DNA of 22,177 bases, from positions 1-22,177 of the IMG/VR virus record IMGVR_UViG_3300025122_000183, one strand, 5' to 3'. The position numbers and the translations under genes were made by a program. The DNA is from a virus. This document shows positions 12,705-22,177 of this stretch, piece after piece (positions within the stretch are counted from its first letter, which is position 1; every line of letters begins with the position of its first letter). The notes under the pieces were generated by a model that ran no database searches, was not told where the DNA came from, and saw only the letters and a program-made list of their open reading frames with translations.

Positions 12705-13168
12705 AATTTATCGAACTCCTGTTTTAAACTCATTATTAAAGGATGATTCATTTCAAGCTTATGTGCAGTTGCTAATGGTGCTAGGATTTGGTTTTGTGCC
12801 ATAATCTTACCATTGCTGTCTTTCACATCAATTAGAGAATATCCTCTTTTTGCTTTTTCTGCAATAACTACTTTCTTCATTTCAGCTAGTAATTCTTGGT
12901 TCAATGGTGCTAGTGCCTGGACATAATCTTGATTGAATTTTAGCAATCTGTCATTTTGTTTGCTTAATGTTTCTAGGTTTTTCTTGAACATATCTTCTTC
13001 AATTTGTTTTTCTAGTTGTTGCTTTTGTTGTTCTTGTTGTTTCATTTGGCCGTGTAAGCTTTGTTGGTCAAGTACTGCTTCTCCTACTTCCATTGTTTTA
13101 ATAACTGTTTGCGTAGTTTTAATTTTTCCATCTACGACTTCTACTTTAAATTCATTTTCTGCATCCAT
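12701..13168 (-). CDS. Coiled-coil protein, unknown function
   Basis: A 155-residue protein. Residues ~38-75 are a Gln/Glu/Lys-rich coiled coil (HGQMKQQEQQKQQLEKQIEEDMFKKNLETL). A second helical segment follows (~80-105), and then a compact region with GYSLIDVKDSNGKIMAQNQILAPLATAHKLEMNHP. GAGGT eight bases before the ATG supports this start, which lies 17 bases inside the winged-helix gene. It could be a scaffold-like or adaptor protein for packaging, or a regulator partner of the neighbouring wHTH protein. No family recognised. Confidence 0.65.
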   Translation of the reverse strand: MDAENEFKVEVVDGKIKTTQTVIKTMEVGEAVLDQQSLHGQMKQQEQQKQQLEKQIEEDMFKKNLETLSKQNDRLLKFNQDYVQALAPLNQELLAEMKKVVIAEKAKRGYSLIDVKDSNGKIMAQNQILAPLATAHKLEMNHPLIMSLKQEFDKL

Positions 13169-13511
13169 TTTGGAGTACCTCGTTTAGTTTTTTTAGTTCT
13201 TTTACTTGTAATAATCCTATTATTAAATCTTGGTTACTAGCTGCGAAAGCAGGGTCATTACGTAATTGTTTATATTCAATCAAGGCTTCTTCTAGTTTAT
13301 CATCTGTTTTTCTAATAGAAAAATAGGATATAGCAGGACCGAATTTGTTTACTGTAACGTTTTTAGAAACTAAAGTGTTTTCAGTGATTAATTTGTTGAT
13401 AGCTGCTCGAGCGCTTTGGTAATTTATTTTTAGAATTTTACTTAAGTCATCAGCGCTGAAAAACGCATTAGGGTTTTTGTTTAAAAAATCATATATCTCT
13501 TTTTTACCCAT
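13152..13511 (-). CDS. Winged helix-turn-helix DNA-binding protein
   Basis: A 119-residue protein. Residues 1-68 form a winged helix: helix 1 KKEIYDFLNKNP, helix 2 SADDLSKILKI, recognition helix NYQSARAAINKLITENTL, then a beta-wing SKNVTVNKFGPAISYFSIRK. The C-terminal half is helical and may dimerise (DDKLEEALIEYKQLRNDPAF...LIIGLLQVKELKKLNEVLQ). It is the first gene after the clearest promoter in this half of the window, so it heads the packaging operon. It may regulate the switch from replication to virion genes or act on its own promoter. AGAGGTG lies five bases before the ATG. Fold is confident; target is inferred. Confidence 0.75.
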   Translation of the reverse strand: MGKKEIYDFLNKNPNAFFSADDLSKILKINYQSARAAINKLITENTLVSKNVTVNKFGPAISYFSIRKTDDKLEEALIEYKQLRNDPAFAASNQDLIIGLLQVKELKKLNEVLQNGCRK

Positions 13512-13545
13512 TTATACACCTCTATATCATTGAAAGTATAATAAC

Positions 13546-13559
13546 TTTATATACTTTTC
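13546..13559 (-). promoter_or_regulatory. BRE/TATA promoter of the packaging operon
   Basis: On the minus strand reads GAAAAG then TATATAAA, a good archaeal BRE-TATA pair about 35-48 nt upstream of the ATG at 13511. Initiation ~25 nt downstream would leave a very short leader that still holds AGAGGTG. The same arrangement (GAAAG-A-TATATAAAG) recurs on the plus strand at 21889-21903, which strengthens both calls. Confidence 0.65.
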
Positions 13560-13571
13560 TATTTTTTTATG

Positions 13572-13587
13572 ATATTATTTAAATACT
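13572..13587 (+). promoter_or_regulatory. Third copy of the shared TTTAAATA element, inverted
   Basis: Plus-strand ATATTATTTAAATACT is the reverse complement of the first 16 nt of the elements at 7946 and 10223. Here it points opposite to the surrounding genes, between the ERCC4 nuclease stop and the packaging promoter. Its core TATTTAAATA is a palindrome, so it could work in either direction or bind a dimer. Confidence 0.45.
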
Positions 13588-13614
13588 AGTAATGCTTTTT
13601 AGTTAATTACTAGT
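13585..13614. repeat. Perfect 9-bp inverted repeat across the ERCC4 nuclease stop codon
   Basis: ACTAGTAAT at 13585-13593 and ATTACTAGT at 13606-13614 are exact inverted copies with a 12-nt loop; after one mismatch three more A-T pairs extend it. The nuclease stop codon (13603-13605) is in the loop. It could be a transcript-end hairpin or an operator; no U-tract follows on the minus strand. Confidence 0.5.
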
Positions 13615-14052
13615 TTTAACTTTTTTTTTATTATTAATATAACTATTAAATAAACTTTTAATAATTCTCTTACTCTCACACCTGTTACTAGCGAAAAACA
13701 CATTAATCCTGTACTTAACATGTAAAGTGAACAATATTTTAAGAATCACGTAACCTTTCATTCTAGAAAAATAACTGCCCTTGAAATCCTTTTTTTGAAT
13801 TTGAGTGTAAGTGCCATCAATGACAATAGCAAAGTATTCAAGACCTAGTGATTTCATTAATTCTTTTTTAAATCTTTTATGACCTCCTGATAATGTTCCA
13901 AACAAGTCCCCTAGTGATTTTCTTTCTATTGCTATTTGATTCTCGTATCCTTTAATACTATAGTCACCAATGTCTAATTTCTTTCTTTCAATCTTTTTTG
14001 TCCACAAGGGCAATTGCTCCCTTGTATCTACCACTATTGTATATTCGTCCAT
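13603..14052 (-). CDS. ERCC4/XPF-type structure-specific endonuclease
   Basis: A 149-residue protein that is essentially a bare ERCC4 nuclease domain. The motifs are in order: VDTREQLP (Asp9, Glu12), LDIGDY (Asp30), and AIERKSLGDLFGTLSGGHKRFKKEL carrying the ERKx3D signature (Glu43, Arg44, Lys45, Asp49). A hydrophobic strand (EYFAIVIDG) follows. No helicase or tandem HhH domain is attached, unlike cellular XPF/Hef. Such stand-alone nucleases probably cut branched or flap DNA during replication, recombination or packaging. It overlaps the polymerase gene by 19 bases and closes the replication chain. ERCC4 nucleases are mainly archaeal and eukaryotic, which supports an archaeal host. Confidence 0.88.
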   Translation of the reverse strand: MDEYTIVVDTREQLPLWTKKIERKKLDIGDYSIKGYENQIAIERKSLGDLFGTLSGGHKRFKKELMKSLGLEYFAIVIDGTYTQIQKKDFKGSYFSRMKGYVILKILFTLHVKYRINVFFASNRCESKRIIKSLFNSYINNKKKVKTSN

Positions 14053-15791
14053 GTTGACAACTCTTTTTGTTTATTTCTTGTTTTAATAAAAGGATTTATT
14101 TCTTGCCAGAATTTATCTAGCACTATATCTCTAATGCATAGTTTATTTTCATTAAATTCTTTTAATGTGCAAAACTTTTTGCTCTTGCCTGTTCCGAATA
14201 CAGTGTTAGGAATCAAGTTATGTTGTCCTTTACCATATTTTTCTGCAAGGTTATAGAACAAGTTTGTTTTGCAATTATACTTGTTTAATTCTTTTAAATT
14301 AAATTCTTGTTCTACTATAGAAAAATTGTTTCCTATTTCTTCATCTATTACGTCCTTGATGTATCTCCACTTGAATTTAACATTGTTATTGTCTATTATT
14401 TCTTTTTTAATATACTTGTTAAAAACTAGTACTCCTAGTTTAGATGCATTGCTTTTCATTAATGGTAAGCCTTTTAGTTTTAGTTTTCCTGTTTTTGTAA
14501 CGTATAAATAGTTTTTCTTTTTTAATCCAGGGAAGTACATTAATCTTATTTCATCATCTATTCCCATGTCAAACGTGTCTTGTTGGAATGGTACAGATTT
14601 TTTTATTTTGTTAATAACACTTGTTTTAATCATCATTAGTCTTTCTTCATCATCGTAAACATCTTCCATGTATATACTGTCAGTGTCACTGTATAATACT
14701 TTGTATCCTGCTTCAGTAAACATTTTTCTTCCTAGTTTTATTGATTCTCTAACGAATAAAGTGCAGTCCTTGGCAGTGTTAATATTAAATACGTTTTTGA
14801 ATACAGGATTTCCGCAAATACCATATAATGTATTCAAGATTATTTTTAAGGCTACTTCTCTAGGGTCTTTATTTTTTTTATATTCTAGTCTTAGCATGTA
14901 TAAGTCCTTGATTACTTTACTAATAATGTTTAATTGTTTAGTACAGTATTTACCGCTTAACTCGAATAATTCACCACCGTCATATTTTTCTTCTTTAGTG
15001 CAACACGTGCACTTGTTTCCGAATAAGTTTAACATTATGTAAGCGTGTGGGTAAGCGCTGTTAAAGTCTAAACAATAAATATTTCCTGTTATGAATTCAG
15101 TGGCCGGTATACTAACATAGCCTCCTTCAAAGTTTAAGTCTTCTTGCTTGTATTTTTCACGGTCTTCATCATTTAGCCATTCTTCTTTTAATCCTGTTAA
15201 GTGACAAATTGCTTTGTATGCATACGTTCCAGGACTTGACATTAACCATGACCATTCTCTTATATCTATTTTGTTCATGTATTCCCTGTAAAAATAAAAG
15301 TAATTGTACAAGTATTCAAATAATTCTTTTGTTACTTCAATGTCTTGTTGTCCATACTTGAATATTAATTGTATTTCTTCACTTGAATGATTTGGTTTTT
15401 TAAGCATGTCGTAATCAAAGTCATCTATTTTTTTATTTTTTAAGTCTAATGCCTTGGCAATAACAGATAATGATTTCTTTTTGAAACCGCCGTATTTGAT
15501 TAGTGTTCCTCTTCTTTTAATTATTTTTAGTAAATCAATAGGTTTAACATAATTGTATTGTTTAGCGTAAACTCTAGAAATTATTTTAGTATCAAATTCA
15601 TCACCATTGTATGTAACGTATACCTGGTGGGAATCTAGTATTTTTTGAATTTCTTTTTTGTTATCTTTAAACATTAAATTATAATACTTGTCTTCACGGT
15701 ATGAATAACCGTGAAAACTTATAATATTACAAGTATTAATGTCTAAGTCATCTGTTTCTAAATCAAATACAAGTATGTTTTTATTCTTCAT
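14034..15791 (-). CDS. polB: DNA polymerase family B, compact, with proofreading exonuclease
   Basis: A 585-residue replicative polymerase. Exonuclease: Exo I FDLETDD (Asp10, Glu12), Exo II YNGDEFD (Asp64/Asp67), Exo III YGQQD (Asp150). Polymerase: motif A LDFNSAYPHAYI (Asp242), motif B KIILNTLYG (Lys316), motif C YSDTDS (Asp369, Asp371), and a KKxY-like LKKKNYLYV at ~423-431. Both active sites look intact. Cellular archaeal PolB enzymes are usually ~770-800 aa. Here the exonuclease starts at residue ~6, so the N-terminal uracil-reading domain is absent. The ATG overlaps the ThyX stop (ATGA), coupling synthesis of polymerase to nucleotide enzymes. No TPR-type protein-priming insertion was obvious. 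Confidence 0.93.
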   Translation of the reverse strand: MKNKNILVFDLETDDLDINTCNIISFHGYSYREDKYYNLMFKDNKKEIQKILDSHQVYVTYNGDEFDTKIISRVYAKQYNYVKPIDLLKIIKRRGTLIKYGGFKKKSLSVIAKALDLKNKKIDDFDYDMLKKPNHSSEEIQLIFKYGQQDIEVTKELFEYLYNYFYFYREYMNKIDIREWSWLMSSPGTYAYKAICHLTGLKEEWLNDEDREKYKQEDLNFEGGYVSIPATEFITGNIYCLDFNSAYPHAYIMLNLFGNKCTCCTKEEKYDGGELFELSGKYCTKQLNIISKVIKDLYMLRLEYKKNKDPREVALKIILNTLYGICGNPVFKNVFNINTAKDCTLFVRESIKLGRKMFTEAGYKVLYSDTDSIYMEDVYDDEERLMMIKTSVINKIKKSVPFQQDTFDMGIDDEIRLMYFPGLKKKNYLYVTKTGKLKLKGLPLMKSNASKLGVLVFNKYIKKEIIDNNNVKFKWRYIKDVIDEEIGNNFSIVEQEFNLKELNKYNCKTNLFYNLAEKYGKGQHNLIPNTVFGTGKSKKFCTLKEFNENKLCIRDIVLDKFWQEINPFIKTRNKQKELSTWTNIQ

Positions 15792-16624
15792 TTTAGTTCT
15801 GCCTCTAGTTTCTTGAACTTTTTAATGTGGCTGTAATCATCTTTTGGTTTAGGATGAGAGAACTTTATGTTTGACCAATCCTTACCTATTTCTTTTAATT
15901 TTTCTTGGTGTAGTTTGCTTGGTGGATACGTGTTCAAGTTCATTTTTTTATCAATAGCGTTAATGTAATGCCATTCTATTATTTCAGTTGGTATTTTTAA
16001 GAAAGGATATACTTTTAAGATTTCTTTTCTTATTAATAATGCTACGATTCTATCACTTGTTGGTTGGCATTGAACTCCTAATCTTACTCTAATGAATCCA
16101 AGGAAGTCTTTTATGTTTCCGCTCATGAAGTACTTGCATTCTTTCGCTCTAGGCATGTAATGTCTTGCATCATAGAATGTTAATCCTTCTTTTAGTGCAT
16201 CATCATATAATGAATTCATTTCATTACAAATCTTGTGTGCTCTTTCTAGTAAATGAGGTTTTTCAATGAATGCATCATTATCAAGTATGTCATGGTTTGA
16301 CATGCTTACAGGGTCTGTTGACTGTGCAGAGAATGAAAACATTCTGTGTCTGATAATATGTGTTACTGTTGTTAAGTCTAATCCTTCTATGAAAAAAGTT
16401 AGTCTAACTGTTTCTAGAGCTGTTGGTAATGTTCTTCCTTCAAACATTTCATGAACGAGTTCTTCTCTTGTTAAATTTCTATCTTTCATGAACTGGTCAA
16501 GGTCATTATAGTTTTCTAACCAGGTAATGGAACAGAATTCAGGAATATATTTTTTTAATCGTTCCATGCTAGGATAATCTACTAGTGTTACTTTTATATT
16601 TTCTAAATGATTTTTAAATTTCAT
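15788..16624 (-). CDS. thyX: Flavin-dependent thymidylate synthase-like protein, divergent
   Basis: A 278-residue protein. ThyX methylates dUMP to dTMP using FAD, NADPH and methylene-folate. The signature RHRxxSxNxxSxR is present but altered: RHRMFSFSAQSTD at 92-104 keeps Arg92, His93, Arg94, Ser97 and Ser102, but Asn becomes Ser99 and the final Arg becomes Asp104. Downstream, ARHYMP (153-158) and NIKDFLGFIRVRLGVQCQ (170-187) match the second half of the family, though the usual Q-x-E-I-R is replaced by QCQPTSDR. The family is clear; the substrate may differ from dUMP. AGGAGG lies 9 nt before the ATG and the gene starts 11 bases inside the kinase gene. Confidence 0.85.
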   Translation of the reverse strand: MKFKNHLENIKVTLVDYPSMERLKKYIPEFCSITWLENYNDLDQFMKDRNLTREELVHEMFEGRTLPTALETVRLTFFIEGLDLTTVTHIIRHRMFSFSAQSTDPVSMSNHDILDNDAFIEKPHLLERAHKICNEMNSLYDDALKEGLTFYDARHYMPRAKECKYFMSGNIKDFLGFIRVRLGVQCQPTSDRIVALLIRKEILKVYPFLKIPTEIIEWHYINAIDKKMNLNTYPPSKLHQEKLKEIGKDWSNIKFSHPKPKDDYSHIKKFKKLEAELK

Positions 16625-17033
16625 TTTTTAATGCCTCCTTTATGTGTTGAACTGTTGCTTCTTCTGTCATTAATGAAGTGTTCACTGATATATATTTCAC
16701 GTTACAATCATTAATGTAGTCTATTGCTTTTTCAAAACATTTTAAGTCTTTAGCTATATTTACTTTTTCGTGCTTTGCTATCTTGTATCTTGTTTCAAGG
16801 TCTTGTTTATCAGCGTGTAAGTAAACAATAATAATATTATCAATATTATTTAGTAGCCAAGTCTTAATACTTTTACTGACTTCTCTTTTATATCTAAAAC
16901 AATATGCAAGGTATGATAAAAAAAGTCTATCACAAGTTAAGTGTTTGTAATTTGTTTCTTTATCAAATAGTTTATGTATTGTTGTTTTTCCTACTTTGTC
17001 TACTCCCTCAAATACTATTAATTTTAATTTCAT
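16614..17033 (-). CDS. Thymidylate-kinase-like P-loop dNMP kinase, short
   Basis: A 139-residue P-loop protein. The Walker A reads FEGVDKVGKTT (8-18), the form typical of dTMP kinases. CDRLFLSYLAYCF (34-46) matches the DRxxxSxxAYQ substrate motif. HADKQDLETRYKIAKHEK (73-90) is the Arg-containing lid. It would phosphorylate a pyrimidine deoxynucleoside monophosphate to the diphosphate. Cellular dTMP kinases are ~200 aa, so this one is markedly trimmed, with a shortened lid and C-terminal core. The ATG overlaps the HD gene stop (ATGA). Position between the HD protein and ThyX supports a role in thymidylate, or a modified form of it. Exact substrate is uncertain. Confidence 0.78.
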   Translation of the reverse strand: MKLKLIVFEGVDKVGKTTIHKLFDKETNYKHLTCDRLFLSYLAYCFRYKREVSKSIKTWLLNNIDNIIIVYLHADKQDLETRYKIAKHEKVNIAKDLKCFEKAIDYINDCNVKYISVNTSLMTEEATVQHIKEALKNEI

Positions 17034-17530
17034 TTTTGTGCACCTTTTAGTTCTGTGTATAGTCTAGCTATTGCTTTTCTTGTTTCTCTTTTCACTCTAG
17101 GCATATAAAGATTATTTCCTAGTCCTATTTCTGTATTAGTATATTGCATTACGCTTAGTGCATCTGCTAGTTTTACAATTAAGCCTTCAACTGTTCTTTT
17201 ATTATTAAAATCATTTAATAATTCCTTGTACTCTGGGTATTTTTCTTTAATAATATTGTTTTCTATTTTAGTAGCTACCTCATCTAGTTCTTTGTACTTA
17301 TCCTTGATATTTCTTGGTATGTCACTAACCCATATTTCAAAAATATCATGTGTTATTGCCATTAGTAATGCTTTTTCTAAATTAAACTGGTATGTCTTGT
17401 GTAGTCTTGCTACTATTAAAGAAACAAAAAAAGAGTGCTCAGCTACTGATTCATTTGTTATTCTTGATAAGTTATTAAAACGAATTATGTTTTTTAAAGC
17501 GTATAACTCCATCATTTCTTCTTCTATCAT
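17030..17530 (-). CDS. HD-domain 5'-deoxynucleotidase, YfbR-like
   Basis: A 166-residue HD phosphohydrolase. The metal ligands fall in the YfbR order: His32 in SVAEHS, His61-Asp62 in THDIFE, Asp123 in KLADALS. Glu65 and Asp70 (VSDIP) match the catalytic and substrate residues of the family, with the same spacing as H-D-x2-E-x4-D in E. coli YfbR. Such enzymes remove phosphate from dNMPs; relatives in some phages degrade dNTPs (for example DatZ acting on dATP). It may shape the nucleotide pool used by the viral polymerase. The ATG at 17530 overlaps the preceding stop (ATGA). Fold is confident; substrate preference cannot be read from the sequence. Confidence 0.85.
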   Translation of the reverse strand: MIEEEMMELYALKNIIRFNNLSRITNESVAEHSFFVSLIVARLHKTYQFNLEKALLMAITHDIFEIWVSDIPRNIKDKYKELDEVATKIENNIIKEKYPEYKELLNDFNNKRTVEGLIVKLADALSVMQYTNTEIGLGNNLYMPRVKRETRKAIARLYTELKGAQK

Positions 17531-17967
17531 TCTATTTCACCTACATAGTCTAAGGTATAGTTTTCATCTTGTAAATAATTGTAGACTATAAGTTTTAGAA
17601 CCGTTAATGATGTTGCTACGCCTATTCCGCTTTTTGATAGCATTAAGTTAAAGCCTCCTTTTAGTCCATCACAGTAATAAATTATTGGTTTGTTATTTGA
17701 AAATGCTACGCCGCATTCAAATATTGTTCCCATGTCTTTATCTCTAGTGTTTGCTATTATAAAGTCTGCTTTTTTAATTTCATTAACGTTTTGATTAAAT
17801 GTTTTAGTTTTGTCTTCTTCAGAGTTCATTGAACTTACTAAGCATTCATCTTTTGGACTAAAAAACACTACATCTAACTCTTTTAATATATGTTTTATAT
17901 TAGCTAAATCATTGGCTTGTTTTTCATTAAACCACCCTGAAGCAATATAAGCTGTTTTATTCACCAT
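17527..17967 (-). CDS. Nucleoside 2-deoxyribosyltransferase-like protein
   Basis: A 146-residue protein of the NDT/DNPH1 superfamily. AYIASGWFN (6-14) is the N-terminal phosphate/ribose loop, FFSPKDE (35-41) the second strand, KKADFIIA (65-72) the acidic strand, and DKDMGTIFECGVAFSNNKPII (76-96) the catalytic helix with Glu84 in the D-x-G-T-x-x-E-x-G-x-A pattern. Members swap bases between deoxynucleosides or cleave dNMPs into base and deoxyribose phosphate. It begins the nucleotide/polymerase chain, with AGGAGG before the ATG and a hairpin/U-tract just upstream. It may salvage bases or destroy unwanted host nucleotides. Family is good; transferase versus hydrolase is open. Confidence 0.83.
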   Translation of the reverse strand: MVNKTAYIASGWFNEKQANDLANIKHILKELDVVFFSPKDECLVSSMNSEEDKTKTFNQNVNEIKKADFIIANTRDKDMGTIFECGVAFSNNKPIIYYCDGLKGGFNLMLSKSGIGVATSLTVLKLIVYNYLQDENYTLDYVGEIE

Positions 17968-18000
17968 TTTTTATCCTCCTATAGTTTATACTAAATAAAT

Positions 18001-18039
18001 AAAAAAAGTTAATACAGTGAGTTTAAGCACTGTATAAAC
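18001..18039 (-). terminator. Hairpin plus U-tract terminator after the 50-aa gene
   Basis: ATACAGTG (18012-18019) pairs with CACTGTAT (18028-18035) around an 8-nt loop. Past one mismatch, GTT/AAC extend the stem. On the minus strand the stem is followed by seven U (18001-18007). It begins six bases past the stop codon at 18045. This is the form of a factor-independent terminator, or an attenuator controlling read-through into the deoxyribosyltransferase chain. Confidence 0.65.
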
Positions 18040-18044
18040 TGATT

Positions 18045-18197
18045 TTATTTACTAGTTGTTGCCTTAATTTCTTTGCTAACTATTCCATAAGCGCAACTCA
18101 AAGCTTTTCTCAAATCACCTAGTTCTATATTAGGCTCTTCTCCTTTAATACCATCAATTGCTTTGCTAGCTAACAACTGTTTCATTTCATTCTTCAT
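18045..18197 (-). CDS. Hypothetical 50-aa protein downstream of dUTPase
   Basis: A 50-residue protein from the ATG at 18197, which has GAGGAGG ahead of it inside the end of the dUTPase gene, one base after that gene's stop. A start at 18236 is open, but lies within the dUTPase frame without a ribosome site. The sequence is helical and mixed-charge (MKNEMKQLLASKAIDGIKGEEP..., LGDLRKALSCAYGIVSKEIK). No family recognised. The strong ribosome site and the terminator right behind it support it as a true gene. Confidence 0.62.
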   Translation of the reverse strand: MKNEMKQLLASKAIDGIKGEEPNIELGDLRKALSCAYGIVSKEIKATTSK

Positions 18198-18198
18198 T

Positions 18199-18543
18199 TT
18201 AGTAACCCTCCTCTTTTCGTTTGTTATTAATCTCATTCTTCATGAGAAATAATTCTTTCACTTCTAAACTAGTCATTCCTGCAGCTAATGACAAATTGAT
18301 TACAAAATGCCATAAGTCAATAATCTCTTCTTTAAACTTAGCTTGGTGAAATTCTTGTTGTTTCTTCCATGGTTTCCATGGAGTCTCTCTAAGTGCTTCC
18401 ATTAACTCGTCCATTGCAGCTAGTACCATCATATTAATATATTCTTGGTTACCTACAATTTTGAAGTCTTCACCTTGTAGCTTAGTTTGTAGTGCTATTT
18501 GTTTTTGAAACATTTCATGCAAACCATCTGTTAATTCTTCCAT
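18199..18543 (-). CDS. dUTPase, dimeric all-alpha (MazG-like superfamily)
   Basis: A 114-residue helical protein. The metal-binding acids fit the dimeric dUTPase pattern: E-x2-E in AAMDELMEAL (Glu46, Glu49) and E-x3-D in KFKEEIIDLWHFV (Glu72/Glu73, Asp76). TPWKPWKK (54-61) is the family WKxWKK segment. LFLMKNEINNKRKEEGY (98-114) is the usual KNxxNxxRQxxGY ending. It would hydrolyse dUTP to dUMP and pyrophosphate, supplying substrate for the ThyX-type enzyme and keeping uracil out of DNA; the viral PolB lacks the uracil-sensing domain. At 114 aa it is shorter than many relatives. GAGGT precedes the ATG. It follows a hairpin/U-tract, so it may be controlled apart from the replication unit. Confidence 0.85.
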   Translation of the reverse strand: MEELTDGLHEMFQKQIALQTKLQGEDFKIVGNQEYINMMVLAAMDELMEALRETPWKPWKKQQEFHQAKFKEEIIDLWHFVINLSLAAGMTSLEVKELFLMKNEINNKRKEEGY

Positions 18544-18564
18544 TTTATTTACCTCGTAGTAAAG

Positions 18565-18584
18565 AAAAAGGGGTAATAACCCCT
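18565..18584 (-). terminator. Hairpin plus U-tract at the end of the primase/SSB unit
   Basis: AGGGG (18569-18573) and CCCCT (18580-18584) flank TAATAA. In the minus-strand transcript this makes a five-pair GC-rich stem, whose 5' arm shares two bases (18583-18584) with the UAG stop codon, followed by five U (18565-18569). It looks like an intrinsic terminator or attenuator between the ssDNA-binding gene and dUTPase. Confidence 0.6.
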
Positions 18585-18918
18585 AATTCATTGCTATTTC
18601 TTTTACGCTGTATTGTGTGTCAAATCTATCACCAACTTTCAAAATACTCAATTTTACTTTATCAGCTGGTGTTTTACCTTCTAATATAGGTCTTAGTTTC
18701 TGTTTAAGTCTTCTACTACTAGTCGTAAACTTTTTATCAGATGTTTCTTTACCATCTTCCTCTAATACATCAGACTGCAGCTCGACTTGTTCCTTGTCAA
18801 ATTTTTTCACTTTTTCAAAGTGTATGTTAGTTACAACAAGCACTTTTTCTTTGTCTGCTTCTAATTTAACAAACCCGTCGCTTGCAATTGCGTCGTCCCA
18901 ACTTATTTCTTCTGCCAT
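18583..18918 (-). CDS. Probable single-stranded DNA-binding protein
   Basis: A 111-residue protein with GGAGG eight bases before the ATG. The layout resembles small OB-like phage replication proteins. An acidic start (MAEEISWDDAIASDGFVKLEADKEKVLVVTNIHF) gives the first strands. A Lys/Glu-rich loop follows (KKFDKEQVELQSDVLEEDGKETSDKKFTTSSRRLKQKLRPIL). Strands such as VKLSILKVGDRFDTQYSVKEI close the barrel. It is encoded 44 bp after the primase-helicase in the same unit, the usual place for an ssDNA-binding partner. No decisive motif is present; the call rests on strand pattern and context. It could also be a helicase cofactor. Confidence 0.5.
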   Translation of the reverse strand: MAEEISWDDAIASDGFVKLEADKEKVLVVTNIHFEKVKKFDKEQVELQSDVLEEDGKETSDKKFTTSSRRLKQKLRPILEGKTPADKVKLSILKVGDRFDTQYSVKEIAMN

Positions 18919-18962
18919 TTTAGTGGCCTCCGTCTTGCTGAACTCTTATGGTTCCGCTTTGA

Positions 18963-21590
18963 CTATAATATCATCACACGCCCTGGCTTTGGTTCATATA
19001 TAGCACCAGCTTTAATTAGCGATGTAATGAAGGTATCGATATTCTGTTTAAAATGTACAGCAATATCTTCTATTTCAATTAAGTGACTTTTACTTGATTT
19101 TATGAATTTCAAAATATCTTCTGACCTTAAAATTTTCTCACTTTTGGCTTTTGAAAAACCATTGTTTAGTGACGGACGGTTTTTAATTAGCGCCCCGGGC
19201 TGATTTTTTAAGGTCTGTTTTTCATTTTTATATATAAAAACAGCAGGGACCTTAAACCTGTTTTCAGAATCATAGTAAAATTTACAATCATCAATATTGA
19301 TATTTTGATATGATTTTGATTTTGAGTTTAAGGTCATGTGTTTTAGTAAAGCTTCACCATCAGGTAATTCTATCAAATCTAAAGCTTTTTCCTCGTTTAA
19401 AGTATATAAAGTAGTTTTACCTAAACTCTTCTCTGAATTTAAATATCCAAGGTTTTCTAAGTGAGCTAGTTGACCATGCCAGTGAGTATGACTTTTACCA
19501 ATTAATCTTTGTAAATCATACACACTAAAGGAATCCTTCCATGAACTTTTCTTTAGTAATGTAATAATATCTATTTGTTGAACCGTTAATCCAGAAAACG
19601 TAGCGCCTAGAATATTATGAGAATATTGTTTAGCTATATCATAATCAATAATATCACACTTTATAAACTCTTTTCCTTCAATTTCAATGATTTCTCGTTG
19701 TTTTTGATGTAAATAAGCACTACACTTGATAAGAGTAATAAACTTCATGTAATCCCGTCTCGCTCTAACATCATTAGTAGGAATCTTCATGAATTCCTCA
19801 TCTAAAAAATTAATAATAAAATGATAAGGTTTAAGCTGCTTTAAAGCATCTCTAATGGTTCTTATTTCTAGCTCATTATTACTAAGTATTCCTTTATTTA
19901 AGTCAGTCTGGTGCTTTAAAATCATCCTGGTTTGATTCTCTGACACATCTAAACTTATTAACCAGTTTCTATTATTTAATTGGTCTCCTACCATTCCTTC
20001 TGCTTGACAAGTTAAAAAACAAGGTTGGCCTTTAGTTGTTTTACGAACTTTGCTATTAACTTCAATGCCTTCTTCATTAATAACCTTTTCAACAGTATCA
20101 AAAGCTAGTTTACCTTCGCTCATCCATACCCTTAATTGAGAAGTATTTTCATCTAATCCTTGCATTTCTTCTACAAATAATATTTTACCATCCATATTTT
20201 CTTCAGTATAATAATTAATAACAGATTTTGACATTCTAGAAATAACATGATAATCCTCACCTTCGATTCCAAAAAGCTTTAAAATCTTTTTAGCCACGTA
20301 TGTTTTACCTGAAGATGAATCAGATGCTAATATAATATTTTGGCTCATCGGGTCACTTGGAATATTCCAATCAATCATACCTGTTTCTGAAGGAAAGTCT
20401 TTACTAAGTAATAATAAAAATATAAGCATTTTAATATCGTCTTCACCTACTATCTCATCATCAAGAATTTTTTTAATCTTTTGTAATAGTTTAGAAGAAT
20501 TTAAAAAATCATTAGCTTTTTTATTTTTAGCACAACAAAATTCACAAACAGAACTATCATGTACTCCTAGTTCATCAAGTTGTGAACAATTCCAGAATAC
20601 TTTTTCTTGAGCATAAACCCAGTTCATCCAGTTTTCTGCTTCATGTAATGTAAACTTATGACCTACTTGGTCACAATTATTAACGTATTCATCTAATATT
20701 AATAGTGTTTCTTTCTTTGGTAACTGGTCAATTCTACAAGCAACTGAAATTAAAAAAGCTCCTTTACTTCTATTTCCTGAATCAGTTCCTTCTTTTAATT
20801 TTAGAATACTATCCATTTCAGAATACTTAATTTTTAAATATTCATTTTTGAAAGGTTCAATTTTTGTGTCTTTACAAGTTTTTATAAAATTAGAAAGATA
20901 AGAACAAAGCTCTATAATATCAATATCAAAAGATTCAATTTGAACAGGGTACTTAACATGCTTTAATTCATTAACACTTATTTTTTTATTATTGAAAGTA
21001 TCTTTTGAAATATATGTTTTGTAAGTAGTAGTATAAGATTCATCTGGTTTCTTAGTAATTTTTCTTCCACCACAATCTCGTATTAAATGTGAGGACCCTG
21101 CAAAGTAATCAAATTTAATTACTTGGGAGTCAACATATTTACCCCTAAATTTTTCATCAATACCTGCTTCTTCAAGAATTAGATTCCAAAACCATAATCT
21201 TATATGTTTCGGGATAAAGCCATAACTGTTTGCTTCTTTTAATAATTCTTTATGTTTAGTGTTTGTTGCTATTAGTTTATTAAAATAGATATGAATGTGA
21301 ATTCCTTTGCCACCTGTTGCATAAATATAATAAGGTATGTTTCTATTTTCTAATGCTTCAACAACTAATTTGGCTTTATTATAATTTTTTATGTAAGAGC
21401 TCCAGTCAAAATCAAAAACAATTTCATTCATTAGAACATTTCGTTCATCATGAATCTCGTATTTTCCATAACTATAACGGTATCCTGGTTTATATCCGAG
21501 GTCATCTGATTTTTTAATTAATGCAGCGACTTGGATTGGAACCGTTGAAACGGATTTTAATTGTTCAATATATAGTTGTTGACCATTCAA
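18963..21590 (-). CDS. Primase-helicase: AEP-type primase fused to AAA+ ATPase with winged helices
   Basis: An 875-residue replication protein. Residues ~40-240 look like an archaeo-eukaryotic primase: IVFDFDW (Asp60, Asp62), then YATGGKGIHIHIYF (90-103) as the nucleotide-binding GG-x-H motif, with RDCGGRKI at 171-178. Residues ~250-355 are helical and end in a Cys group (Cys335, Cys349, Cys352, Cys353). A AAA+ ATPase follows: Walker A ASDSSSGKT (422-430), Walker B ILFVEEMQ (470-477), NNRN (539-542) and VRARRDY (608-614) as possible sensor/Arg-finger regions. Two winged helices (~665-732 and ~822-872) finish the chain. It probably primes and unwinds viral DNA. The start is TTG with AGAGGTG six bases upstream; a stop lies just upstream in frame. 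Confidence 0.82.
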   Translation of the reverse strand: MNGQQLYIEQLKSVSTVPIQVAALIKKSDDLGYKPGYRYSYGKYEIHDERNVLMNEIVFDFDWSSYIKNYNKAKLVVEALENRNIPYYIYATGGKGIHIHIYFNKLIATNTKHKELLKEANSYGFIPKHIRLWFWNLILEEAGIDEKFRGKYVDSQVIKFDYFAGSSHLIRDCGGRKITKKPDESYTTTYKTYISKDTFNNKKISVNELKHVKYPVQIESFDIDIIELCSYLSNFIKTCKDTKIEPFKNEYLKIKYSEMDSILKLKEGTDSGNRSKGAFLISVACRIDQLPKKETLLILDEYVNNCDQVGHKFTLHEAENWMNWVYAQEKVFWNCSQLDELGVHDSSVCEFCCAKNKKANDFLNSSKLLQKIKKILDDEIVGEDDIKMLIFLLLLSKDFPSETGMIDWNIPSDPMSQNIILASDSSSGKTYVAKKILKLFGIEGEDYHVISRMSKSVINYYTEENMDGKILFVEEMQGLDENTSQLRVWMSEGKLAFDTVEKVINEEGIEVNSKVRKTTKGQPCFLTCQAEGMVGDQLNNRNWLISLDVSENQTRMILKHQTDLNKGILSNNELEIRTIRDALKQLKPYHFIINFLDEEFMKIPTNDVRARRDYMKFITLIKCSAYLHQKQREIIEIEGKEFIKCDIIDYDIAKQYSHNILGATFSGLTVQQIDIITLLKKSSWKDSFSVYDLQRLIGKSHTHWHGQLAHLENLGYLNSEKSLGKTTLYTLNEEKALDLIELPDGEALLKHMTLNSKSKSYQNINIDDCKFYYDSENRFKVPAVFIYKNEKQTLKNQPGALIKNRPSLNNGFSKAKSEKILRSEDILKFIKSSKSHLIEIEDIAVHFKQNIDTFITSLIKAGAIYEPKPGRVMIL

Positions 21591-21612
21591 TTTAACACCT
21601 CTTTAGTAAATA

Positions 21613-21783
21613 TTATTTAGCCCATAGAGCTAAGTACTTTCCATGCTTTCCTTTTTTGGCTTGCATGATTATTGTCGAATCTTCTTTTGCTTCTATATAA
21701 TTAATTAGCTCGATTGGAATTGTTACTGCTTTTGAGCCACCTTTTAAGCCTAATTTTCGTTCAAATGTTATTTCATCTTGCAT
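21613..21783 (-). CDS. AbrB/MazE-like swapped-hairpin DNA-binding protein, 56 aa
   Basis: A 56-residue protein with AAGGAGG before its ATG. The core FERKLGLKGGSKAVTIPIELINYIEAKEDSTIIMQ matches the AbrB/SpoVT swapped-hairpin domain: basic strand, GGS turn, the VTIP strand, then a short helix and a second hairpin strand. Such proteins are dimeric transcription regulators or antitoxins. No toxin gene lies beside it, so a regulator is likelier. It is the first gene of the leftward replication unit and sits beside a palindrome-rich divergent promoter region, which may be its operator. The primase gene follows after 22 bases. Fold is fairly confident; target is inferred. Confidence 0.72.
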   Translation of the reverse strand: MQDEITFERKLGLKGGSKAVTIPIELINYIEAKEDSTIIMQAKKGKHGKYLALWAK

Positions 21784-21830
21784 TTTTGGTTTCCTCCTTA
21801 ATATTAATGTAATTTATGATTCTAAGCTCC

Positions 21831-21840
21831 TTTATAAATA
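21831..21840 (-). promoter_or_regulatory. TATA box for the leftward replication unit
   Basis: On the minus strand reads TATTTATAAA, about 50 nt upstream of the AbrB-like ATG at 21783. Initiation ~25 nt downstream leaves a leader of ~25 nt containing AAGGAGG. It faces away from the plus-strand TATA at 21895, with a palindrome between them. Confidence 0.55.
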
Positions 21841-21853
21841 TTATTATTATACG

Positions 21854-21879
21854 TTGTATATATTACAGAATATATACAA
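21854..21879. repeat. Perfect 11-bp inverted repeat between divergent promoters (operator candidate)
   Basis: TTGTATATATT (21854-21864) and AATATATACAA (21869-21879) are exact inverted copies separated by ACAG. The repeat lies midway between two opposing TATA boxes. It would suit a dimeric repressor such as the adjacent AbrB-like protein, or an origin element that melts easily. Confidence 0.6.
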
Positions 21880-21888
21880 AATATAATA

Positions 21889-21902
21889 GAAAGATATATA
21901 AA
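21889..21902 (+). promoter_or_regulatory. BRE/TATA promoter for the rightward genes
   Basis: GAAAG, one base, then TATATAAA, matching the packaging promoter at 13546-13559. Initiation ~25-30 nt on, near 21925, would place a 10-bp hairpin at the head of the transcript just before its ribosome site. Confidence 0.62.
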
Positions 21903-21924
21903 GTAGTACTGCTTTCTATATCTT
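21891..21924. repeat. 34-bp inverted repeat overlapping the rightward TATA box
   Basis: AAGATATA (21891-21898) and TATATCTT (21917-21924) pair exactly. After one mismatch, AAAG and CTTT extend the stem, and the loop contains the palindrome AGTACT. Because it spans the TATA box, a protein bound here would block rightward transcription. Confidence 0.55.
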
Positions 21925-21929
21925 ATAAC

Positions 21930-21955
21930 AAATAAACAACAAAGATTGTTTATTT
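21930..21955 (+). repeat. Perfect 10-bp inverted repeat in the rightward leader
   Basis: AAATAAACAA (21930-21939) and TTGTTTATTT (21946-21955) flank CAAAGA. In RNA this is a hairpin ending two bases before the CGAGG ribosome site, so it may affect transcript stability or translation; in DNA it may be a third binding site. Confidence 0.5.
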
Positions 21956-21956
21956 A

Positions 21957-21976
21957 CGAGGTCTGGAAAAATGAAA
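21957..21976 (+). repeat. 20-nt ribosome-site/start module, copy 1
   Basis: Reads CGAGGTCTGGAAAAATGAAA and is repeated exactly at 22118-22137. It contains the SD (GAGGT), an 8-nt spacer and the first two codons of the 54-aa gene. Confidence 0.7.
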
Positions 21977-22135
21977 TGTGAAATATGTAAAAAATCTGAA
22001 AAGTTAATAAAAACAAATTTAGCTAAAATTTGTGATAAATGCTTTTTATTATTTTTAGTAGAAAAAAAATTTATTTCTCAAAAAGAATATAAAAAAGAAT
22101 TAAATGAATTAAAAATGCGAGGTCTGGAAAAATGA
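21971..22135 (+). CDS. Small CxxC zinc-ribbon-like protein, 54 aa
   Basis: A 54-residue plus-strand gene, the first rightward gene from the divergent region. It starts MKCEICKKSEKL, and CDKC follows at 21-24; Cys3, Cys6, Cys21 and Cys24 form a CxxC-x14-CxxC zinc-ribbon pattern. The rest is a Lys-rich amphipathic helix (FLVEKKFISQKEYKKELNEL). Proteins like this in archaeal viruses are usually nucleic-acid binders or regulators. The ribosome site GAGGT lies 8 nt ahead of the ATG. The stop overlaps the next start (ATGA), and the last codons MRGLEK also encode the next gene's ribosome site. Function unknown. Confidence 0.7.
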   Translation: MKCEICKKSEKLIKTNLAKICDKCFLLFLVEKKFISQKEYKKELNELKMRGLEK

Positions 22136-22137
22136 AA
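22118..22137 (+). repeat. 20-nt ribosome-site/start module, copy 2
   Basis: Exact second copy of 21957-21976, here embedded in the last codons of the 54-aa gene and serving the next gene's start. Confidence 0.7.
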
Positions 22138-22177
22138 ACACAAAAAACAAAATATGTAATAACAAAAAAATGCTTTG
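22132..22177 (+). CDS. Start of a second rightward gene, partial
   Basis: The ATG at 22132 overlaps the stop of the 54-aa gene (ATGA) and has GAGGT at the usual distance. Only the first 15 residues (MKTQKTKYVITKKCF) are visible before the window ends, too few to name it. It is likely co-transcribed with the small zinc-ribbon-like gene. Confidence 0.6.
   Translation, partial: MKTQKTKYVITKKCF

Follow-up and report, generated by a model that had tools for sequence, protein, structure and literature searches.

C68, a small protein of the plasmid-virus pSSVx, binds in the interval that separates its promoter from a divergent one; one of its sites overlaps the BRE and another is equidistant from the two promoters (PMC5569661). 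In pRN1, the repressor gene orf56 shares one operon with orf904, which encodes a prim-pol/helicase (PMC4234260). The locus described here recalls both arrangements. It lies in a 22,177-bp IMG/VR record, IMGVR_UViG_3300025122_000183, which is referred to below as the window.

Positions 21784-21970 of the window are likely to be an autoregulated divergent early promoter/operator region of a virus that is probably archaeal and tailed. Switches of this kind are ordinary. The type is known, and here it occurs in a little-known virus group, uncultured and tailed, with archaeal-type promoters and replication genes. The literature yielded no studied regulator for this group, for which the proposal makes a concrete, testable early-gene switch available.

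The virus and its relatives

The virus is probably a tailed virus of archaea. Among annotated phages, the nearest terminase is that of haloarchaeal HGTV-1 (32%), the primase-helicase has weak matches to Sulfolobus fuselloviruses only, and a family-B polymerase and an ERCC4 nuclease are also encoded in the window. Promoters and replication genes together point to an archaeal host. A pattern scan of 84,980 bacterial and archaeal genomes found no primase or integrated relatives, and hence no host. The window has no tRNAs, and an Rfam search of it found no families.

Scans with single proteins (primase, PolB and AbrB) retrieved only one relative, the sister contig 3300025141_014011. It is 99.95% identical to the window across 12966-21976 with the control region unchanged, and such near-identity gives no test of conservation. 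The wider family was opened by terminase alignment and extended by primase and SSB alignments. Primase genes of its close members are 48-58% identical to that of the window, and one genome, G012, has a 111-bp terminal repeat and was taken as complete.

Two further features of these genomes deserve mention. Inserts that vary in length and contain stops break up the terminase gene of several relatives at about codon 245-260 (L095 11426-11634, L017 9295-9962 and G013 about 22934-23913). The L017 insert has an HNH-endonuclease-like frame, and no Rfam intron family was found in L017 or L095. In addition, G012 (L095/L096, 17397-19969) and G005 (L097, 15148-17381) carry QueC-, QueD-, QueE- and GTP cyclohydrolase-like genes, the identities of these 7-deazaguanine pathway genes being judged from sequence. 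The window has at the same place (15788-18543) ThyX, a kinase-like gene, an HD nucleotidase and a nucleoside deoxyribosyltransferase. The two sets appear to be alternative nucleotide or DNA-modification cassettes.

Divergent genes and archaeal-type promoters

Every likely gene elsewhere in the window points leftward, which leaves the control region as the sole obvious point of divergence, as the original prediction held. Its flanking genes and promoter elements, with one further promoter match, are as follows:

13545-13562, minus strand: third promoter-motif match, shortly before a 119-aa HTH gene at 13511
18963-21590, minus strand: 875-aa primase-helicase with archaeo-eukaryotic primase motifs and the Walker A motif DSSSGKT; next gene of the leftward operon
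21613-21783, minus strand: 56-aa AbrB/MazE-like (swapped-hairpin) protein by weak but concordant matches in Pfam, Foldseek and VIA-align; proposed autoregulator
21793-21799, minus strand: the sequence AAGGAGG, ribosome-binding site of the AbrB-like gene
21830-21847, minus strand: leftward BRE+TATA, ATAATAATATTTATAAAG; two mismatches to the motif ATAGAAANATTTATAAAG
21831-21838, minus strand: leftward TATA box, TTTATAAA
21886-21903, plus strand: rightward BRE+TATA, ATAGAAAGATATATAAAG; one mismatch to the same motif
21895-21902, plus strand: rightward TATA box, TATATAAA
21958-21962, plus strand: the sequence GAGGT, ribosome-binding site of the first rightward gene
21971-22135, plus strand: first rightward gene, for a 54-aa Cys-rich (Zn-ribbon-like) protein; absent from the near-identical sister

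The two opposing TATA boxes, and the AbrB-like and primase-helicase genes beside the region, had all been predicted, and both the boxes and the gene starts are where they were placed. The motif ATAGAAANATTTATAAAG was read from relatives and the window together. The control regions of L106 and G005 carry it either unchanged or with a single mismatch, and its three matches in the window at up to two mismatches compare with 0.075 expected. This significance is somewhat flattering, as the window was already in view when the motif was picked out. The third match precedes the 119-aa HTH gene, which comes first in the next block of leftward genes, and the promoter there has no repeat-1 operator (see below).

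Both control-region promoters appear to be of the archaeal (TBP/TFB) BRE/TATA type. Sigma-70 promoters were considered and rejected, as matches in 17000-22177 are at chance level and none of those listed falls within 21784-21970. In archaeal promoters, transcription starts about 26 bp from the centre of the TATA box. If this spacing applies here, the TATA positions would place the starts near 21925 on the plus strand and 21808 on the minus strand.

The 54-aa gene is itself flanked by a direct repeat of about 20 bp, GAGGTCTGGAAAAATGAAA, with ribosome site and start codon (21958-22137). In the sister that lacks this gene, the leader is joined directly to the next gene (L003 4601-4650), which suggests that this early gene was gained, or was lost through the direct repeat.

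Inverted repeats and a larger dyad

The intergenic control region spans 187 bp (21784-21970) and holds three inverted repeats in addition to its two opposed TATA boxes. They and the dyad to which they relate are:

21827-21906: imperfect dyad of 80 bp, arms 21827-21864 and 21869-21906 matching at 31/38 positions; proposed control core
21854-21879: repeat 1, TTGTATATATT-ACAG-AATATATACAA, with perfect 11-bp arms, a loop of 4 and its centre at 21866.5; proposed operator
21891-21924: repeat 2, 15/17 pairs; proposed, from its position, as a second, occluding operator site
21930-21955, plus strand: repeat 3, perfect 10-bp arms and a loop of 6; possible 5' leader stem-loop or further DNA site

Repeats 1 and 3 are exactly as first described in position, arms and perfection, and with loops of up to 14 the window has no other perfect inverted repeats of at least 10 bp. 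When the 187-bp intergenic region is shuffled with its dinucleotides kept, a perfect 11-bp repeat arises with P 0.01 and two separate repeats of at least 9 bp with P 0.002. Repeat 2 is also at the expected place, but its proposed 12 pairs with one mismatch give way to a better alignment with two mismatches, centred on 21907.5, for which shuffles of 21885-21970 give P about 0.008. Repeats 2 and 3 did not occur together in any of 500 shuffles of that interval.

The prediction that the arms all differ has to be amended, since repeat 1 lies together with the two TATA boxes in a single dyad. With its 38-nt arms, this dyad is the strongest in the window and was equalled in 0/500 dinucleotide shuffles. 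Repeat 1 forms its perfect core and the TATA boxes its outer ends. Outside the core, 27 bp match at 20/27 positions, against 11.9 expected (P 0.0025), so that each promoter nearly mirrors the other across 21866.5. Both predicted transcription starts lie about 58 bp downstream of this centre. Repeat 1 is present in a single copy in the window even with three mismatches allowed, and no iteron family was found at the control region.

Repeat 2 spans the stretch of the rightward promoter from BRE/TATA to the predicted start. Repeat 3 would sit in the rightward leader, just before the ribosome-binding site; as RNA its fold is weak (-6.2 kcal/mol, z -1.6). Among the imperfect inverted repeats of the window, the one second in strength lies elsewhere, at 17996-18051. 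It is a hairpin (ATACAGTG...CACTGTAT) between two leftward genes that has a T-run after it on the minus strand and resembles a terminator.

The AbrB-like protein and the proposed switch

The 56-aa protein scores 14.9 bits (E 0.027) against Pfam MazE_antitoxin and its G012 homologue 20.2 bits, both below the cut-off of 24.7. With a monomer model of pLDDT 73, the Foldseek top ten consists of AbrB-fold or closely related small DNA-binding proteins, C68 of pSSVx being first and MazE also leading, at E values no better than about 0.4. VIA-align gave 14 rows, all of them AbrB, MazE, SpoVT or VapB proteins (Z 2-4.4). These matches are individually weak, and it is their agreement that makes the protein AbrB-like, by fold comparison rather than as a certain family member by sequence. 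It presumably binds DNA, its own promoter included. Seven of eight homologues of the neighbouring primase-helicase match LigD Prim-Pol weakly, and the structure model of that protein is poor (pLDDT 61).

A switch can be proposed from these elements. The leftward promoter would drive the AbrB-like gene, the primase-helicase and SSB-like and nucleotide genes, and the rightward promoter an operon of about 2 kb for small proteins, often of Zn-ribbon type. A dimer of the AbrB-like protein, the product of the first leftward gene, would bind the palindrome at the centre, which has the two promoters at equal distances. At higher dimer levels, repeat 2 over the rightward BRE/TATA would probably be occupied too. 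Binding would adjust or shut off both promoters, limiting expression of the regulator and the primase-helicase. Repression seems likelier than activation, though a purely occluding mode would require repeat 2 or spreading, because repeat 1 lies outside the BRE/TATA elements. Early timing is presumed, as is a role for repeat 3.

A gene position occupied by different small proteins

The order of a small-protein gene and then the primase-helicase gene is kept in most relatives found, and in each of the nine close family members examined the primase gene has such a gene directly in front of it. The protein is AbrB-like in five (the window, L105, L106, G012 and L120), RHH-like in two (G005 and L108) and of a third kind in two (L109 and G021, whose proteins are 44% identical to each other). 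The third family is unrelated, matches no Pfam family and is found at L126 3621-3797 and L109 7805-8026. In the window as in its relatives, the small gene is co-directional with the primase-helicase gene and immediately upstream of it, the arrangement known from pRN1. That unrelated DNA-binding folds replace one another at this position fits a regulator role.

Genes upstream of this pair diverge from it in 5/5 genomes of the AbrB type (the window included), 0/2 of the RHH type and 1/2 of the third type. All four other AbrB-type relatives found thus share the divergent layout originally predicted for the window. One small early gene (58 aa) has a homologue that runs against the primase gene in L106 and the sister and in the same direction as it in G005. 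The primase tree places the window, L105, L106 and G012 together and G005 with L108, and the evidence for a coupling of regulator to orientation is thin, being a matter of five against two with shared ancestry. Exchange of the regulator together with inversion of the early operon, such that a control module is swapped as a unit at this position, is at most a tentative and rather doubtful reading. The family nevertheless lends itself to a natural comparison, since the same operon comes with an AbrB-like, an RHH-like or a third-type small protein.

The same gene order bears on whether the viral protein acts at the dyad at all. A host regulator, for example one that is Lrp- or MarR-like, could bind there instead, with the AbrB-like protein acting elsewhere, or serving as an antitoxin or a chromatin-like protein. 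A palindrome centred about 58 bp upstream of the predicted starts would also suit activators, Sta1 provides a known case of a host factor that controls viral promoters in archaea (cited in PMC5569661), and MazE and VapB antitoxins have the same fold. However, no toxin-like partner adjoins the 56-aa gene, next to which the primase-helicase is found in all relatives, and other small proteins, including RHH types, fill the position in other branches. We consider a host regulator unlikely.

Replication

The region had also been put forward as a possible replication origin, and its position beside a primase-helicase gene, its AT-richness and its strong dyad are what such a site might have. An AT-rich dyad could melt or form a cruciform recognised by the primase-helicase, whether or not the region is also an operator, and prim-pol/helicase replicons with a stem-loop origin are known (PMC4234260). 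Nevertheless, relatives with primases 50-57% identical have no common stem-loop or sequence here, and searches beside the replication gene of L105, L106, G012, G005, L108 and L120 found no shared repeat, either iterons or a stem-loop. In pRN1, the closest replicon with a repressor-primase operon to have been studied by experiment, the origin is on the downstream side of the primase gene, upstream of which nothing but the promoter is needed (PMC4234260, PMC3869888).

The GC-skew check suggested with the prediction was run on G012 and G005. Skew in G012 is negative in every 2-kb block except that of the rightward operon (+0.37), and in G005, where the early genes are co-directional with the primase, it is negative throughout. 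Skew thus follows transcription direction and shows no turn beyond it, a pattern that leaves room for unidirectional or recombination-dependent replication. An origin in this region is accordingly very improbable, and the promoter/operator reading is preferred.

Conservation of the repeats

The original prediction proposed that the repeats be sought in relatives that keep the flanking genes, and there they are not conserved. Repeat 1 has no copy in L105, L106, G012 or L120, and no significant dyad is present at the same place in these four genomes (best P 0.06 to 0.5). Conservation is thereby removed as support for an operator. It does not follow that there is none, because the regulators have diverged too and are only 24-45% identical. 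Across IMG/VR, the sister contig is the only other match to the 22-base palindrome, and a relaxed 18-base version adds one further contig, where it falls inside an unrelated coding frame. A half-site, TTGTATA, occurs in the intergenic region of L120 (TATACAAAA...TTTTGTATA) but is too weak to claim.

It is also very improbable that the dyad arose mainly as one promoter was duplicated in inverted orientation to give a divergent pair, its symmetry having no operator role. The outer 27 bp, TATA boxes included, do still match at 20/27 and the divergent promoters of relatives lack a significant dyad, but the central 11 bp are perfect against seven mismatches in the flanks, as expected under selection on the core, and a separate repeat 2 lies over the promoter.

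Comparison with known systems

As a probable divergent control region, the locus resembles that of C68 in pSSVx. Both involve a small viral protein, AbrB-like in the window by fold comparison and of AbrB fold in C68, whose gene diverges from its neighbour, with opposed archaeal promoters between them (PMC5569661), and the BRE site and equidistant site of C68 resemble repeats 2 and 1 in layout. The differences are clear. C68 recognises TATG(C/GG)TTTTC, not the palindrome of the window (PMC5569661), no primase-helicase follows its gene, and the virus type is unrelated. In addition, the BRE-overlapping repeat of the window is on the rightward promoter rather than the regulator's own.

The likeness to pRN1 is one of gene order, with a 56-aa protein followed by a large prim-pol/helicase behind a BRE/TATA promoter (PMC4234260, PMC3869888). 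ORF56 is a CopG/RHH autoregulator, like the small proteins of G005 and L108, whereas that of the window is AbrB-like, and the origin of pRN1 is a stem-loop downstream of orf904 (PMC4234260, PMC3869888). SvtR of SIRV1, AvtR of AFV6 and F55 of SSV1 all have the RHH fold and sites unlike those of the window. They are nonetheless comparable as small autoregulated viral repressors that act at or near BRE/TATA elements, and AvtR covers about 100 bp between two promoters (PMC5569661).
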